NCBI GenBank assembly: GCA_029547025.1
Contig: JAKPQA010000349.1
Span: 1-44,064, forward strand
Direction of reading: 5' to 3'
From: Armatimonadota bacterium
GTDB lineage: Bacteria > Armatimonadota > Zipacnadia > UBA1398 > JAKPQA01
Length of the DNA stretch: 44,064 nucleotides
The position numbers were made by a program, and so were the translations under genes. The notes beneath the pieces are model-generated. The model was not told where the DNA came from, did not search any database, and saw only the letters and a list, made by a program, of their open reading frames with translations. Position 1 is the stretch's first letter. Every line of letters begins with the position of its first letter. Below are positions 31,799 through 40,011 of this stretch, in pieces.

Positions 31799-32679
31799 CC
31801 ACGTACCTCCGCTCGGAGTGACGCCACCACCTGCGCGGCCGTAGCCGCGTCGTAGGAGCTGCGGACGAACGGCCCCGAAGCACAGTGGATGAAGCCCATG
31901 GCTTCAGCCCGGGCGCGGAGCCGCTCGAACTCATCGGGATGCACGTAACGGTCGATGGCGGTATGCCGGGGCGTGGGCCGCAGGTACTGGCCGAGGGTCA
32001 GGAGGTCGCAGCCCACACGACGCAGGTCGGCCATGGCCTCGAGCACTTCCTCTTCGGTCTCGCCGAGGCCGAGCATGAGGCCCGATTTCGTCGCTGCGGT
32101 GGGCGCGATCTCGCGGAACCGGCGCAGGACATCCAGGGAGGTCTCGTAGGAGGCTTGGGGCCGAATCGAGCGCTGCAGCCGCCGCACGGTCTCCAGGTTG
32201 TGGTTGAGCACATCGGGCGCCGCCCGCGCGACGAGAGCGGTGGGCTCCGGCGCGCCACCAAAGTCAGGAGTGAGGACCTCGATGGTGGCATGAGGCAAGG
32301 CCTGGCGGATGGCGCCCACCGTGGCCACGAAGTGGGCCGCACCGCCATCGGGGAGATCATCGCGCGTCACCGACGTGACGACCACGTGGGTAAGGCCGAG
32401 GTCGGCTGCCGCCTCGGCGACACGTTGAGGCTCCGCCGGGTCAAGGGGTTGAGGCGCGCCGTGGCGGACGGCGCAGAAGGCGCAGTCGCGTGTGCAGACC
32501 TCGCCCATGATCAGGAAGGTCGCGGTGCCGCCTCCGTAGCACTCGCCGATGTTCGGGCACCGGGCGTTCGAGCAGACCGTGCTCACGCCGTGCCGGGCCA
32601 GCCTCTGGGCGGTCTGGCGCGAGTGCTCCAGTTTCCCAAGTTTCACGCGGAGCCACTCAGGTGGCCGCTGAGCTGCCAT
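31795..32679 (-). CDS. lipA: Lipoyl synthase
   Basis: A 294-residue radical-SAM enzyme that inserts two sulfurs into protein-bound octanoyl groups to make lipoyl-E2 and GcvH. Both clusters are complete: the auxiliary [4Fe-4S] ligands C36, C41 and C47 (C-X4-C-X5-C) and the radical-SAM C62, C66 and C69 (C-X3-C-X2-C in CTRDCAFC). VVVTSVTRDDLPDGG, HNLETV, GLMLGLGE, LTLGQYLRPT and the final RSSYDA with the auxiliary Ser ligand are all canonical. The length is usual. The SD before ATG 32679 is weak and distant (GGAG, 12 nt). A -10-like TATACT lies on the minus strand at 32721-32726. It serves the lipoyl-dependent complex of which E1 is encoded at 1761-3792; no lipB is seen. Confidence 0.97.
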   Translation of the reverse strand: MAAQRPPEWLRVKLGKLEHSRQTAQRLARHGVSTVCSNARCPNIGECYGGGTATFLIMGEVCTRDCAFCAVRHGAPQPLDPAEPQRVAEAAADLGLTHVVVTSVTRDDLPDGGAAHFVATVGAIRQALPHATIEVLTPDFGGAPEPTALVARAAPDVLNHNLETVRRLQRSIRPQASYETSLDVLRRFREIAPTAATKSGLMLGLGETEEEVLEAMADLRRVGCDLLTLGQYLRPTPRHTAIDRYVHPDEFERLRARAEAMGFIHCASGPFVRSSYDAATAAQVVASLRAEVRG

Positions 32680-32816
32680 GCGTCTCGGTCACTCCGTTCC
32701 CGGGGAAATGGACCCATTCCAGTATACGCCAGGGACCCGCGGCCCGACCTGGCGCCACACAACGCCGCCCCACCGCGCCCTTCCGAGGACCCGCAGTTGC
32801 ACGCTACGGCGCGCCG

Positions 32817-32845
32817 TTGACGCCGTCCGCAGGCGCGCGCATAAT
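32817..32845 (+). promoter_or_regulatory. Sigma70-type promoter for the BtrH_N-like gene
   Basis: TTGACG (32817-32822), a 17-nt spacer and CATAAT (32840-32845), each one mismatch from consensus. Predicted start near 32852, only about 19 nt before GTG 32871, which itself has GGAAG 8 nt upstream. Confidence 0.75.
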
Positions 32846-32870
32846 CCCGCCACTCCCGGAAGTGGTGACC

Positions 32871-32956
32871 GTGCGAGGCAGAGCGGTTGCCTACGGTGTG
32901 GCGGCCATGTTGGCCGTTCTGGCTCCACCGTGTTGGCCCCGGGGGGCCGAGGGGGG
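32871..32956 (+). other. Signal-peptide coding segment in a different frame from the following gene
   Basis: From GTG 32871 the frame encodes a perfect export signal: basic RGR, a hydrophobic core with AAMLAVLAPP, then a short polar end. It reaches two G6 tracts (32941-32946 and 32951-32956) and after that is one base out of frame with the gene body. Loss of one G would join it to Asp-Val-Thr-Val at 32956. Without the shift the frame ends at 33080, a 69-residue product. A real frameshift, phase variation and a sequencing error are all possible. Confidence 0.6.
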
Positions 32957-32964
32957 ATGTCACG

Positions 32965-33990
32965 GTGGCGGACGCATATCCTGCGCCGGCCGTGATCGAG
33001 GGCGTCCCGAAGATCGGCTTCGGTGTTCACATGTGCCCCTTCCCCGGCTCCCTCTCGTCGGTCCTGGAGTTCCTGGGTGACCCGGTCGACTATGACTACG
33101 TGATGGGTGTCAGCGGGGCGTGCTTCCGGCGGGTCTGGAACCGAGACGACGGCGGCAATGTGGACCTGATGTACTTCGAGCCCGAGCCCTACGAGCGCAT
33201 CCTCAATGCGCTGGGGTACGAGTTCCGCACCGTTCCGCGCAGCGACAAGGCGGCGATGGTTGCGGCCGTCAAGGAGTCGATCGCCGCGGGGCGGCCGGTG
33301 CTGGCGACTGTGCTAGTCGGGCCTCCCGAGGTGGGCGTCATCACCGGTTACGACGCAGATGGTGAGACGCTCATCGGCTGGAGTTACTTCCAGGATGCGG
33401 CCCTGCCCGGCTACTGCGAGGTCCCTGGCTGGTTCGAGAAGCTCGAGGGCGGGCCGAAGGTTGGGCTCATTGTGCTCGGGGAGAAGACGGGCATGGTGCC
33501 GACGGCTGAGGAGACGCTCCTCTCATCGCTCGAGTGGGCCGTCGACCTGGCCCGCACCGAGACGCGTCCCGGCATCCCCGACCACATACTCGGCCTGGCG
33601 GCCTACGACGGCTGGGCGGACGGGCTCGAGGTGGATGCCGATTTCACGGCTGACGACGCCAGGGTGCTGGAGACGCGCCGCATGGTCCATGGCGACCAGA
33701 GTGTGATGCTGGTCGAGCGCCACTCGGCCGCCGGGTTCCTGCGCGACATGGCTGCCGAGGTGCCTGAGGTCGCTGAGCCTCTCGAGGAGGCGGCCCGGCT
33801 CTACGACGAGGTGGGCGATCTCATCGGCAAGGTGTGGCCGTGGGCGGATGACAAGGGTCCTGCCGTCCAGCAGGCGCTAGTCGACTCCGAACAGCGGCGC
33901 CAGGTCGCCGAGCACATTCGTGCGGCCCGGGGGCGCGAGGCCCAAGCCATCGGGTTCCTCGAACAGGCCATTGGGATGCTGAAGCAGTAG
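32965..33990 (+). CDS. BtrH_N/C39-like single-domain protein (body of a frame-split gene)
   Basis: The body reads as 341 residues from GTG 32965, the first start in this frame after the G6 tracts, with a G-rich SD upstream. Very probably the native protein starts at 32871 and is exported. The N-terminal domain (about 10-190) resembles the BtrH_N/papain-like superfamily: GFGVHMCPFPGSLSSVLEF with candidate nucleophile Cys24, YDYVMGVSGACFRRVW, IAAGRPVLATVL and GVITGYDADGETLIGWSYFQ. The His normally found before GYD in C39 enzymes is absent, so peptidase activity is doubtful. The C-terminal part is a helical bundle. The next gene encodes a two-domain relative. Function unknown. Confidence 0.75.
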   Translation: MADAYPAPAVIEGVPKIGFGVHMCPFPGSLSSVLEFLGDPVDYDYVMGVSGACFRRVWNRDDGGNVDLMYFEPEPYERILNALGYEFRTVPRSDKAAMVAAVKESIAAGRPVLATVLVGPPEVGVITGYDADGETLIGWSYFQDAALPGYCEVPGWFEKLEGGPKVGLIVLGEKTGMVPTAEETLLSSLEWAVDLARTETRPGIPDHILGLAAYDGWADGLEVDADFTADDARVLETRRMVHGDQSVMLVERHSAAGFLRDMAAEVPEVAEPLEEAARLYDEVGDLIGKVWPWADDKGPAVQQALVDSEQRRQVAEHIRAARGREAQAIGFLEQAIGMLKQ

Positions 33991-34016: not shown

Positions 34017-36323
34017 ATGCGCCACTGGCACGCGCTGGCCGCACTGGGTGTGGCGTCGCTAACGGGTGGCTCCGCCGCACAGGAATCGCCGTCCGAGTTC
34101 GCTCTCGAGGGCGTCCCCTACATCGGCAACGACTGGCAGGCGCACCTCGACGGGCCGCAGGACCTCATGTTCGCTTCGGCCATGGCGTCGGTGACGAAGT
34201 TCCTGGGAACCGCTCCGCCCGACGCGTACCGGTTCTTCATGGGCGTGTGCGGCGTCGCGCAGCAGCAGCTGTGGCACCCGACGGAATGGCGCACGGCGTT
34301 CGACGACGTGTGGCGGCTATCGGACGACCCCACCGAGTCGGTTCGCCGCACGTTCGAGGCCGCCGGGTACGAGTACCGCCTCTTGGGCAATCAGGCGGTC
34401 CGCGATGCTCGTGGGCTCCCTGCCGACTACCCGGAGTACGTGATACCCGACGTGCTGAAGCAACAGGTGTGTGAGAGCCTGCGTTCTGGTGTGCCGGTCA
34501 TCGCCTTCGGGCTGAAGAGCGGCGCGGCGGTGATCGCAGGCTACGAGGAGAACGGCGATGTGCTCCTCGGCTGGGCCATGCTCGAGAACGAGGGCGCGAG
34601 CGAGCGCGGGCTTGAGAACTACTTCCGGTTGCGCCAGTGGACCGATGAGACCCAAGGCGTGGCGCTGATCGGGCAGCGGGTCGAGCCGCCGTCGACCGAT
34701 GAGTCATGCCAGCGGGCGCTGCTCTGGGCCCTACAGAATGGTCGGCGCGCGCGCATTGGCGAGTATCTCTCCGGCCTCTCCGCCCTGGCTGCCTGGGCCG
34801 ATGCGCTGGTGCGGGAGCCCTTTCCAGACCCGGCCGACCTGGCCACCCTCCGCCGCCAGCACGTTTCACACTTCATGACCTCACTGAATGTGGCCGAGGG
34901 GCGTGCCTTCGCCTATGCCATGACGGATCCGGTGGAGCAGGCTCACCCGGAGGTCGCGGAGGACGTGGGCGTGACCATCCAATGTCACAGGCTGATGCAC
35001 GACCTGGTGTGGCGGCTCTGGCAGACCAAGGAGCCCGGCACCGAGGAGGAACAACTGAGGCGGTTCGCTGACCCCGCGGTGCGACAGGAGCTGCGCCGCA
35101 TCGTGCTGCTCGAGCGGGATGCGGACGCGCACGCCTTCGCGCACATTGACCACATGCTGCGCACGCTCGGAGTCGATCCGAAAGAGATCCCCGAGCCTTC
35201 GGCTGATGAGCGGGACATCGTGGCCCGAGCCGACGCGAGGGAGCAAGCGAGCGGCGGCGACCGGTCGGCGCTGGAGCATCAGGAAGTCAATCTGTGGGTG
35301 GGCGGCGTTCCGCGGATCGCGTGGCACCAGGGGAAGGACTGCACGTTCATTGGCGCACTCGAGGCGGCCATGGCACCGACCTTCCGCCCGTGCGAGTACA
35401 GCGACCTGATGGGCTACTCGGGGCTGGCGTTCCGCACGCGGTGGTTCCGGAACCCCGAGGGCGTCGCCACTCCTTACGGCACACTGCGGTGGCACCCGGT
35501 GAGCCCCCATGGCGAAGGCCCCGACGAGGTCGCTGCCATCAGTCGGGCCACGGGGTGGGACCTGCGCCGGGTCGACTTCGCCGAGGACGATCACCTGGCC
35601 CGGATGAAGGCCATCACGGACTTCGTGCTGTCCATCAACGAGGCCCTGCCCGTGGTGATCGGCTACAACACCGACCTGGCCGTGGCGTATGGGTACCACA
35701 TCCACAGCATGAGCCTCTTCCTGCGCGACTACCAGCGGCCGGATGCTGACGACATCCGCGTGGGTTCCGAGGATGCGAAGCTCGGCCCAGTGGCCGTGTT
35801 CCTCGGTGGCATTGGCGAGGCGCCGACTCCGGCCGATGCATTGCTCGATGGCCTCGCCATGGCCGTGAGCCAAGGGCGGCAGGCGAGGGGCGACGGATTC
35901 GTCTACGGGCCGGACGCACTCCGGGCGTGGGCAGGTGACCTGGCTGGCTACGATGGCTACTCGCCGGAGGAGCAGAGCCTGCTCTACCAGACGAACTGGT
36001 GGACGCTGATGCACCTGGCAGATGCGCGTAGGGCGGCTGTGGCGTTCCTGGAGGCGAATACCGAACTACTGCCTGAGGCGGCCCGATCGGCTCTGGCGCC
36101 GGCACTCGAGTGCTACTCGCAGGAGGCGGAGCTGCTGGACGGGTTCGTGACCGCGAACGCCCAGTTCCTTCCCTGGTGGGGAGGAACCGCTGGCGAGCAG
36201 GACTGGGACGAGGCGACGCGCCAAGCTCAGTCGTCCCTCTTGCTGAAGACCGCCGAACTCGAGGAACCGGCACTCGAAGCCGTGGGTGAGGCACTCCGGC
36301 GAGCGGGCCGGGCTGCCCAGTAG
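34017..36323 (+). CDS. Secreted two-domain BtrH_N/C39-like protein
   Basis: A 768-residue exported protein (signal to about 21, SGGSAAQ-like end), ATG 34017 with GGGAGG 6 nt upstream. It contains two copies of the domain found in the previous gene. Copy 1 (about 28-210) has FFMGVCGVAQQQLW and VIAGYEENGDVLLGWAM, but the nucleophile position is Leu50 (QDLMFASAMA), so it is degenerate. Copy 2 (about 425-610) keeps Cys442 in GKDCTFIGALEAAM and the LMGYSGLAFRTRW motif. Both copies are followed by long helical regions. It is probably a paralog by duplication. A binding rather than cleaving function seems likely for copy 1. No substrate can be named. Confidence 0.8.
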   Translation: MRHWHALAALGVASLTGGSAAQESPSEFALEGVPYIGNDWQAHLDGPQDLMFASAMASVTKFLGTAPPDAYRFFMGVCGVAQQQLWHPTEWRTAFDDVWRLSDDPTESVRRTFEAAGYEYRLLGNQAVRDARGLPADYPEYVIPDVLKQQVCESLRSGVPVIAFGLKSGAAVIAGYEENGDVLLGWAMLENEGASERGLENYFRLRQWTDETQGVALIGQRVEPPSTDESCQRALLWALQNGRRARIGEYLSGLSALAAWADALVREPFPDPADLATLRRQHVSHFMTSLNVAEGRAFAYAMTDPVEQAHPEVAEDVGVTIQCHRLMHDLVWRLWQTKEPGTEEEQLRRFADPAVRQELRRIVLLERDADAHAFAHIDHMLRTLGVDPKEIPEPSADERDIVARADAREQASGGDRSALEHQEVNLWVGGVPRIAWHQGKDCTFIGALEAAMAPTFRPCEYSDLMGYSGLAFRTRWFRNPEGVATPYGTLRWHPVSPHGEGPDEVAAISRATGWDLRRVDFAEDDHLARMKAITDFVLSINEALPVVIGYNTDLAVAYGYHIHSMSLFLRDYQRPDADDIRVGSEDAKLGPVAVFLGGIGEAPTPADALLDGLAMAVSQGRQARGDGFVYGPDALRAWAGDLAGYDGYSPEEQSLLYQTNWWTLMHLADARRAAVAFLEANTELLPEAARSALAPALECYSQEAELLDGFVTANAQFLPWWGGTAGEQDWDEATRQAQSSLLLKTAELEEPALEAVGEALRRAGRAAQ

Positions 36324-36384: not shown

Positions 36385-39300
36385 TTAGGGCGTCTTGTGC
36401 GCCACAAACGGCCGGTACCGGTCCCACTCGAAGTTGGGGCTGCGCAGCGGCGTGTGACAGGGCAGACAGGCTCGCGTTTCGACCGGCTTACCCGCAGCCG
36501 GATCATGGCCCTGGGCGGTGATGCCGCCCACATCATGGCAGGCCAGGCAGTGGACTTCCTGGAGCCTCAGGCCACCCGCGCCGGCCACGGGAGCCGAGTG
36601 GCACTGCCAGCAGTCGGGATTGCGCTCCTCACCCACCGACGCCAGGGTCGCCATGGCGTGGCCGTGGCCCGTTGATCTCCACTGCTCATACTCGGCCGCG
36701 TGGCACGCGCCGCACGACGCCGGCCGGAACTCGGTCCCGATGGTCTCCGCCGCCGCCAGCTCGCCGGCGAACGTGGCCTCCTGGGCGCCCTTGTAGTCCG
36801 CCACGATGGCCTGGACGGCCTCGTCCCTACCGGCTGAGTCGTCCAGCAAGACGAGGCGATTGCGGGCCGACTCGACCGCACCGTCCTTCAGCGTCAGGTG
36901 GAGCAAGCCCAGGAACTGCCCATCCCGGCCCGCCTCGACCAGTATGGTTGTCCCTTCGGACTCCTCAGCATGAGTCGCCCGGCCCGTGTGCGCGCCGATC
37001 ACCACATCGATGCCCGGCACCATCCGGGCAAGCTCCCGGTCACGCTCGGCACCGAGGTGCGAGAGGGCGACGACCACATCGGCCCCCGCCTCGCCGCGAA
37101 GAACGTGGGCCTCACGCCGCGCCGAACTGATTGGATCCTCGATCTCAATCCCACGCCGGTAGCTTTCGGTGCCGAAGGCGAAGGCCTCAGGCGCCAGCAC
37201 CGAGAACACGCCGATACGCAACAGACCACGGTCCAGCACGATGTGCCGGCTGGCCAGCGGCTCACCCGCCCTGGAGAGATTAGCCGAGACGACAGGCACC
37301 GGCGATCCCTGCCCGAGCGACGCCACGAAATCGGAACCCAGAGCCAGTTCCTGATCGCCGAGTCCTAGCGCATCGAGTCCCATCGACTCGAGGGCTCGCA
37401 GCAGGGCTGTGGTGCGAGCCGGGTCACCCATCTCGGGCAGCATGTCGCCAGCACTGAGAAAGACGAAGTTGCCCGCGCGCTGCCGTGCATCGCGAAGCGC
37501 TGAGGCCATGGCGGCCACGCCGCCGAACGGGTTGCCGGGGCATCCGCAGGCCTCGAGCTGACCGTTGAGGTGGCCCGCATACGCAATGGTCAGCGAGCTC
37601 GAGCTGATGCCCAACCGGTCCAGCACGGCCTCGGTCCTCTGCTGCGTGAGCAGAACAGACTCCTCGGGGCTGGAACCCCGCTCATGAAGGTCCACGAGCT
37701 CGCGATTCTCGACGAGCAGAGTCAGACCGGCCGGAAGGTTAAGCTCCTGGCGCGCTCGGGCGTCCGCCATCAGCGCCTCGAGGATCTCGGGTTGGGTCGC
37801 CCCGGCGCGAACCGTTTCGGGGTCGAGACCGACAGCACGCACAGGCACATCCCAGTACGAGCTGTTACCGACCTTGGCCCGCTCGTCGAGGTAGTCGGCC
37901 ATCAGTTCGGGCCGCGTGCGGCGTACGAATGCCTGCCGCGCCGCCTCCTCCACCTCGGCCGGTCCGCCGGGTGCCGCCAGGGCCCCGCTGGTGTTCTGAT
38001 ACACCACCCACCGAAGGTTCAGGTCGAAGCGCTCCAACGCTCGAGGCCTCGATAGCTCCCGAACGAAACGAGCGGCGGCGCCCAGCGATGCTGGATCAAG
38101 AGGGCTGAGGAACAGGTCGAGCCGCCGCGTCTCCCTCGGGCGCGTGATGTCCAGGGACCCCCCGGCGCGGTATGGCTCCAGCTGGTAGAGCTCGCCCTTT
38201 CGGAGCAGCCCGCCCTGCAAAGATGCAAACTCACGCGACTGCTCGACGGCTCTGTCGAGGAAGAACGCCGGCAGCCAACGGACATCCGCCGAAGCGATGA
38301 GCGCCCGCCCCTCGTCGGATGCCGCGTCGAGTGTTCGGACCTGAACCCCAGGCAGCAGCTGGGCCAGGGGCGACGTGATGCCGCCCGGATCAGTGAAACG
38401 GACCTCGGGGCTAGTCAGTACGGTGAGCTGGATGGGGATGGGGTCCTCGAACTCGCAGTGCCGTGCGCCATCTGCCTCGACACAGCGCCCAATCTTGCCT
38501 GTCTGCCGGCAGTCACGGTCGTCGAAACACTGGGGCAGACCGGAGCACACCTCGGGCCGCCCGGCCTCCGGCACAGCGGAGCAGAGGTAAGTCAGCATGC
38601 GGTCGCGGGTGATCTCGGCGTAGCTGCCGGTCCGCGTGCCGTTCACGAGCAGCGTGGGCGTCTCCCGGATGCGAAACCGCTTTGCCAGTTCGGCATCGTG
38701 CAGCAGGCGCGCCTCAGACTCGCGGCCCTCCACACAGCGCTCGATGGGATCGGCATCGACACCAATGGACCGGAGGAGCTCCTCGAAAGGCGATTGCGGC
38801 GACACCATGCGCGCCACTAGATACTGGGCGATACGCGGACCGGCCACACGCTCGATGCACGCCTGGCGTCTGTCCTCGAGCAACTCGGCGGGCTCGGTGC
38901 CGGAGTCGAGAGCGCCGTCCTCGCCCGCGTGGACGACATAGTGACGCCGCAGGACGACCCGCTTCGGCCCGAAATCCTGAACCGCGGCGAACACCTCGGG
39001 CTGAGCGGTGCGGCAGTGCGGGCACTCGGAGGTAACGTAGAGGTCGACCACGGCTTGGCTCTGCTCAGCGAGGTCGCCCCCGAGCCGCGCCTCAAAGGCA
39101 TCGACCAAGGCGCCCACTTCGGCATCGCTCTCGACCTGGTCCGAAAGGCGCATCTCGCGCACCTGGAACCCATCGATCCGGTGCCGCTCATCAACAGTGA
39201 AGTCGATGCGCCCCAGCGCTCGCCCCTGGTAGCTGAAGTGCGCTACCACCGTCCCACCGATCACATCGGACAGCCCCCCGGGCTCCGAGGACATCCGGTG

Positions 39301-40011
39301 GGCGTTGATGAGCACGTCGATCCCGCCCACCTGCTGCAACAGCTCGCGCGAGGTGGTCTCACCCAAGTGGCTCAGCAACACCACGACATCCACCGCGGCT
39401 CGGATCTGCTCGACAACGGCCCTCACGGCCGGGATGGGAGGCGATACGGAGAGGCCATCGGGAAAACGGCCCTCATCGAACAGAAACGCCTCGTCCGGAG
39501 TGGCACCGATGATCCCAAAGCGAAGGCCCCCAACCTCGCGCACCACGTGGGTGGGGAGAAGCAGCCTGCCGTCGGCCCCGCACAGGTTGGCCGAGACGAA
39601 CGTCGTCCGGGCGACATCCCCCGCATGGCGGAGGAAGTCGGCACCATAGGCCAACTCCTCGTCCCCCACTCCGACGGCGTCGTAGCCCATCAGGGCCATG
39701 GCACGCAGTGTCGTAAGGGTCCGCTCTCGATCGACGACCGGACCCAGCGTGTACTCGTCATAGGGGCCGCCCGCGAAGAGGCCTCCGGCATCGACGACCA
39801 GCACCGGATTGAGCCCCCGCTTCCGCACCTGTCGCAGCATCGTGGCCCGCCGCGCCACGCCTCCATCGGGCCGGATGGGGCAGTTGCACGGGCCCACCAT
39901 CGAATGCGTCTCGCCGGTGTAGGCAATGGTGTACTGCAGTCCCCAGGCGGGCAGCGCGCTGCAGGCCACAAGAACCACAAGACTGCCGGCAATCGCGGCG
40001 CGATGGGTCAT
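36385..40011 (-). CDS. Exported fusion: metallophosphoesterase-like / DsbA-like / thioredoxin-like / metallophosphoesterase-like / tetraheme cytochrome c
   Basis: A 1,208-residue protein from ATG 40011 with a signal peptide ending near PAWG-L. Residues 25-275 and 807-1048 are two UshA-like metallophosphoesterase domains, each beginning with a Cys-X-Cys-Pro motif (PCNCP at 41-45; ACGCP at 821-825) and keeping LSHLG. The canonical GNH(D/E) is GDEE (116-119) and GDQE (885-888). Residues 321-475 are DsbA-like, with C330-P-H-C333 and cis-Pro452. Residues 480-520 are Cys-rich. Residues 525-795 look like two thioredoxin folds without CXXC. Residues 1075-1208 resemble cytochrome c554, with CXXCH at 1100-1104, 1134-1138, 1155-1159 and 1182-1186. 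It would be periplasmic and redox-active. I know no characterised homolog with this order. Confidence 0.85.
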   Translation of the reverse strand: MTHRAAIAGSLVVLVACSALPAWGLQYTIAYTGETHSMVGPCNCPIRPDGGVARRATMLRQVRKRGLNPVLVVDAGGLFAGGPYDEYTLGPVVDRERTLTTLRAMALMGYDAVGVGDEELAYGADFLRHAGDVARTTFVSANLCGADGRLLLPTHVVREVGGLRFGIIGATPDEAFLFDEGRFPDGLSVSPPIPAVRAVVEQIRAAVDVVVLLSHLGETTSRELLQQVGGIDVLINAHRMSSEPGGLSDVIGGTVVAHFSYQGRALGRIDFTVDERHRIDGFQVREMRLSDQVESDAEVGALVDAFEARLGGDLAEQSQAVVDLYVTSECPHCRTAQPEVFAAVQDFGPKRVVLRRHYVVHAGEDGALDSGTEPAELLEDRRQACIERVAGPRIAQYLVARMVSPQSPFEELLRSIGVDADPIERCVEGRESEARLLHDAELAKRFRIRETPTLLVNGTRTGSYAEITRDRMLTYLCSAVPEAGRPEVCSGLPQCFDDRDCRQTGKIGRCVEADGARHCEFEDPIPIQLTVLTSPEVRFTDPGGITSPLAQLLPGVQVRTLDAASDEGRALIASADVRWLPAFFLDRAVEQSREFASLQGGLLRKGELYQLEPYRAGGSLDITRPRETRRLDLFLSPLDPASLGAAARFVRELSRPRALERFDLNLRWVVYQNTSGALAAPGGPAEVEEAARQAFVRRTRPELMADYLDERAKVGNSSYWDVPVRAVGLDPETVRAGATQPEILEALMADARARQELNLPAGLTLLVENRELVDLHERGSSPEESVLLTQQRTEAVLDRLGISSSSLTIAYAGHLNGQLEACGCPGNPFGGVAAMASALRDARQRAGNFVFLSAGDMLPEMGDPARTTALLRALESMGLDALGLGDQELALGSDFVASLGQGSPVPVVSANLSRAGEPLASRHIVLDRGLLRIGVFSVLAPEAFAFGTESYRRGIEIEDPISSARREAHVLRGEAGADVVVALSHLGAERDRELARMVPGIDVVIGAHTGRATHAEESEGTTILVEAGRDGQFLGLLHLTLKDGAVESARNRLVLLDDSAGRDEAVQAIVADYKGAQEATFAGELAAAETIGTEFRPASCGACHAAEYEQWRSTGHGHAMATLASVGEERNPDCWQCHSAPVAGAGGLRLQEVHCLACHDVGGITAQGHDPAAGKPVETRACLPCHTPLRSPNFEWDRYRPFVAHKTP

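Follow-up and report, generated by a model that had tools for sequence, protein, structure and literature searches.

Organisation of the locus

The window, that is, the whole stretch of 44,064 nucleotides analysed here, comes from an uncultured Armatimonadota bacterium and contains a locus at which two reading frames adjoin, one base apart (Table 1). The upstream frame opens at GTG 32871 behind a putative promoter and a Shine–Dalgarno (SD) motif, and continues through two G6 tracts. The open reading frame of the gene body (32887–33990) lies in the same frame plus one base. A sequence-only reading located all of these elements correctly, and its count of 'one G too many' is arithmetically correct, since it restates this offset. 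It took the locus for a gene whose signal peptide had been split off by frame. The anatomy of that proposal is sound and the reading a fair one, while the inferences built on it fail or weaken, as set out below.

Table 1. Features of the locus, with coordinates in the window
Feature	Position	Strand	Remarks
Putative sigma-70-type promoter, TTGACG-N17-CATAAT (10/12)	32817–32845	+	Boxes at 32817–32822 and 32840–32845, 17-nt spacer; unique in window; 0 in shuffles
GGAAG (32858–32862) and spacer ahead of GTG 32871	32858–32870	+	Anti-SD duplex −9.7 kcal/mol, about the median for gene starts
Signal-peptide-like reading frame, 69 codons and stop (33078–33080)	32871–33080	+	One base off the gene-body frame; probably chance or relic
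First G6 tract	32941–32946	+	Read from sequence
GAGGGGGG, including the second G6 (32951–32956); proposed SD of GTG 32965	32949–32956	+	Duplex −13.5 kcal/mol
Best-supported form of the gene: 341 aa from a GTG start, AziU3/BtrH-like fold, without signal peptide	32965–33990	+	
Adjacent two-domain paralog with its own in-frame signal peptide	34017–36323	+	28% and 26% identity to the gene

An Rfam search returned no match at the locus, folding of the leader RNA is not significant (z −1.1), and no second copy of the locus was found in the genome. Beyond the paralog, positions 36385–40011 encode a 1208-aa signal-peptide protein that, inspected by eye, has duplicated nucleotidase-like halves, together with a thioredoxin-like stretch and a C-terminal cytochrome c554-type domain.

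The window contains about five-fold fewer runs of six G or C than expected from dinucleotide shuffles (15 vs ~78), and consequently two G6 tracts 10 nt apart are locally unusual. Across 358 kb of the genome, however, 157 runs of at least six G or C occur, so that a G6 is ordinary in this organism. Such runs are also found in SD slots: seven precede true-frame starts, compared with two and none in shifted frames treated alike, an enrichment based on just these seven cases.

The signal-peptide-like frame

The frame opened by GTG 32871 translates as VRGRAVAYGVAAMLAVLAPPCWPRGAEGG... and was assessed with a simple score that combines a positive n-region, a 12-residue hydrophobic core, and a permissible cleavage site. 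Six sites in the window score as high, and the remaining five are the N-termini of ordinary genes. Dinucleotide shuffling of the leader produces such a frame in 0 of 3000 trials. Within a genome sample of 0.97 Mb (972 kb) out of 6.3 Mb (369 contigs, 658 genes), such a peptide lies in frame in 75 genes and out of frame upstream of one, namely the gene considered here. The frame is rarer than chance and is no common accident.

The signal-peptide-like frame is real, but the earlier description of it as 'perfect' is too strong. It lacks an A-x-A site, carries P and R in its c-region, and its cleavage score ranks at the 17th percentile among the signal peptides of this genome. Synonymous codon use in the stretch is no better than that of intergenic DNA (density ratio 0.5), although this test is weak, as equally low values occur for 18% of the signal peptides in this genome.

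The gene product and its relatives

An AlphaFold2 model of the gene product has a mean pLDDT of 94 and a fold that is complete from residue 9 onwards. Its best structural matches are AziU3/AziU2 (PDB 7wuw, 8gs1; E ~1e-7, TM ~0.5). The BtrH_N profile (PF14399) reaches 18.8 bits, under its curated cut-off of 29.7, and this weak match points to the same papain-like group as AziU3/AziU2. No Pfam or NCBIfam family was assigned to any of 40 aligned members at E 0.001, and Cys 24, the candidate for the catalytic residue of papain-like peptidases, lacks conservation among these members. The family is widespread, the alignment spanning Armatimonadota, Chloroflexota, Planctomycetota, and others, and the AziU3/BtrH-like model is confident.

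The four nearest homologs (G003, G095, G019, and G032; 54–60% identity) are C-terminal domains of two-domain proteins, in which a signal peptide precedes the extra N-terminal domain. Further fused relatives (L079 and G086–G088) have no signal peptide. The same subgroup includes single-domain proteins that likewise have none: three from Chloroflexota (L075, L076, and L078; 49–53%) and a fourth, G059 (45–46%). Each starts at the position corresponding to 32965 or no more than about a dozen residues away from it. In G059, a GTG occupies the exact codon homologous to 32965, with GGGAG ahead of it, and the three Chloroflexota genes begin at ATG codons with good SDs. Where single-domain members of the family are exported, the signal peptide is in frame, and none of the homologs inspected has an out-of-frame signal peptide upstream.

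Within its subgroup, the tree does not separate the gene from its four nearest homologs, and the presence of a signal peptide changes 3 to 5 times across it. Export is thus variable within the family and should not be assumed from the adjacent paralog. The earlier argument that the gene should be secreted because the paralog is does not hold for so mixed a family, though the closest four relatives are exported. Indeed, orthologs that start at about 32965 with no signal peptide had been named in advance as evidence against export, and the four single-domain relatives largely answer to that description.

Two further observations concern distant members and individual assemblies. In several lineages, whole open reading frames (L082, L083, L110, L111, and L114) carry the family domain fused behind ECF sigma factors (Sigma70_r2 and r4); these members are hence cytosolic, and a sensor or regulator role is possible for the AziU3-like domain in these fusions. 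In a homolog from a Caldilineaceae MAG (L081, 2990–3882), the reading frame breaks inside the match, which is probably a frameshift in that assembly.

The start of translation

Several lines of evidence place the start of the gene at GTG 32965. GAGGGGGG ends 8 nt before this codon, and the strength of the resulting SD exceeds that of ~94% of 241 gene starts and is equalled by 6% of them; only 0.5% of random sites equal it. A coding-potential model classes 32659–32987 as non-coding and begins the gene at 32988. As a control, the same model begins the signal-peptide genes at 34017 and 40011 within ~10 nt of their own starts. At the DNA level, similarity to the four closest relatives sets in only at 32980–32992. 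The conserved domain, previously placed from 32956, instead begins near residue 9 of the product initiated at 32965 (~32989). The product has no in-frame signal peptide for Sec export, the two frames being one base apart.

Together with the homolog starts, these results make it probable that translation starts at GTG 32965 and that the product is cytosolic, with a fold like that of AziU3. Transcription would proceed from the promoter upstream and give a leader of ~110 nt, in which GAGGGGGG, second G6 included, would pair with the 16S anti-SD. Initiation at GTG 32965 would then produce a non-exported protein of 341 aa with a single domain, belonging to an unnamed family whose fold is papain-like and of the AziU3/BtrH type. 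The 32871 frame would contribute nothing to this product, and is probably either a chance hydrophobic frame or the relic of an exported ancestor. This would most likely be an ordinary, if curious, gene start rather than an on/off switch for export.

Confidence in this start is not higher because the signal-peptide frame is unusually good. The frame has its own promoter and an SD of median strength at normal spacing. It is also unique among the 658 sampled genes and absent from the shuffles, and the nearest four homologs belong to signal-peptide-bearing proteins.

Alternative explanations

The protein might instead be exported from GTG 32871, with a one-base consensus error of the assembly in one of the G6 tracts. 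The strong signal-peptide-like frame with its promoter and SD, and the export of the four closest relatives, favour such an error, and dropping one G does join the frames. Contig sizes suggest a short-read assembly. A scan for comparable errors was run in two versions. The first detected 29 of 150 simulated insertions and was replaced; the second detected ~90% of simulated one-base insertions at runs lying 150 nt or deeper within a gene, but few of those close to the ends of genes. Across 972 kb of this assembly, with ~300 G6 or C6 runs in its coding DNA, no frame switch at such a run was found. The 52 switches flagged by the second scan were filtered for a G6/C6 run within a long overlap; the three of these that were examined resemble natural gene junctions. 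This bounds the frequency of frameshift errors at roughly 1–2% per run, with the reservation that few would be detectable near gene ends. A consensus error, which the sequence-only reading offered as the simple alternative, is therefore unlikely, and it would make a coincidence of the strong SD and GTG at 32965.

The indel could also be real. A one-base change fixed in the lineage might have severed the signal peptide, leaving the protein N-terminally truncated or cytosolic from GTG 32965. This would account for both a good signal-peptide frame and a good internal start, and is in keeping with the frequent changes in signal-peptide presence in the family. However, an in-frame ancestral form is not seen in any close relative, codon use in the signal-peptide stretch carries no clear signature, and no remnant of the missing N-terminal domain was found upstream of the gene. 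Synteny with the fused homologs was sought by eye, and no lipA-like neighbour was seen. A fixed indel is rather improbable.

Finally, one locus might supply two forms, one cytosolic from GTG 32965 and the other exported through +1 frameshifting or through slippage or length change in a G6 tract. The two tracts 10 nt apart do separate the frames, and GGG-GGA at 32952–32957 would permit +1 re-pairing of Gly tRNA. This is nevertheless very improbable: G6 is ordinary in the genome and short of the poly-G cut-offs for phase variation (PMC6321876, PMC5953494), the arrangement is absent from all homologs inspected, and the site shows no recognisable stop codon or other stimulator. If true, a G-tract export switch in an uncultured Armatimonadota lineage would mean that phase variation reaches further than the host-associated bacteria in which it is best known. 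With initiation at GTG 32965 as the preferred reading, the locus instead carries two warnings for annotation. In high-GC genomes, a G-rich SD may mimic a slippage tract, and a convincing signal-peptide frame adjoining a gene may not belong to that gene.

Comparison with known systems

The gene belongs to an unnamed BtrH_N/AziU3-like family, sharing 45–60% identity with the fused and single-domain relatives described above over nearly the whole 341-aa body. In contrast to its closest four relatives, which are two-domain exported proteins, it consists of a single domain and lacks an in-frame signal peptide. Its closest structural counterparts, AziU3/AziU2, are proteins of azinomycin biosynthesis; as identity to them is 16–18%, their function is not transferable to the gene product.

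The arrangement of the tracts recalls the poly-G phase-variable genes of Campylobacter and Neisseria, in which G tracts likewise lie between the start and the gene body. The cut-off applied to such genes is at least G7 in Campylobacter (PMC6321876) and G9 in Neisseria (PMC5953494). The tracts here have six. Slippage and phase-variable export, as first proposed for this locus, are weakened by the comparison, and the second G6 is more plainly the SD of GTG 32965.
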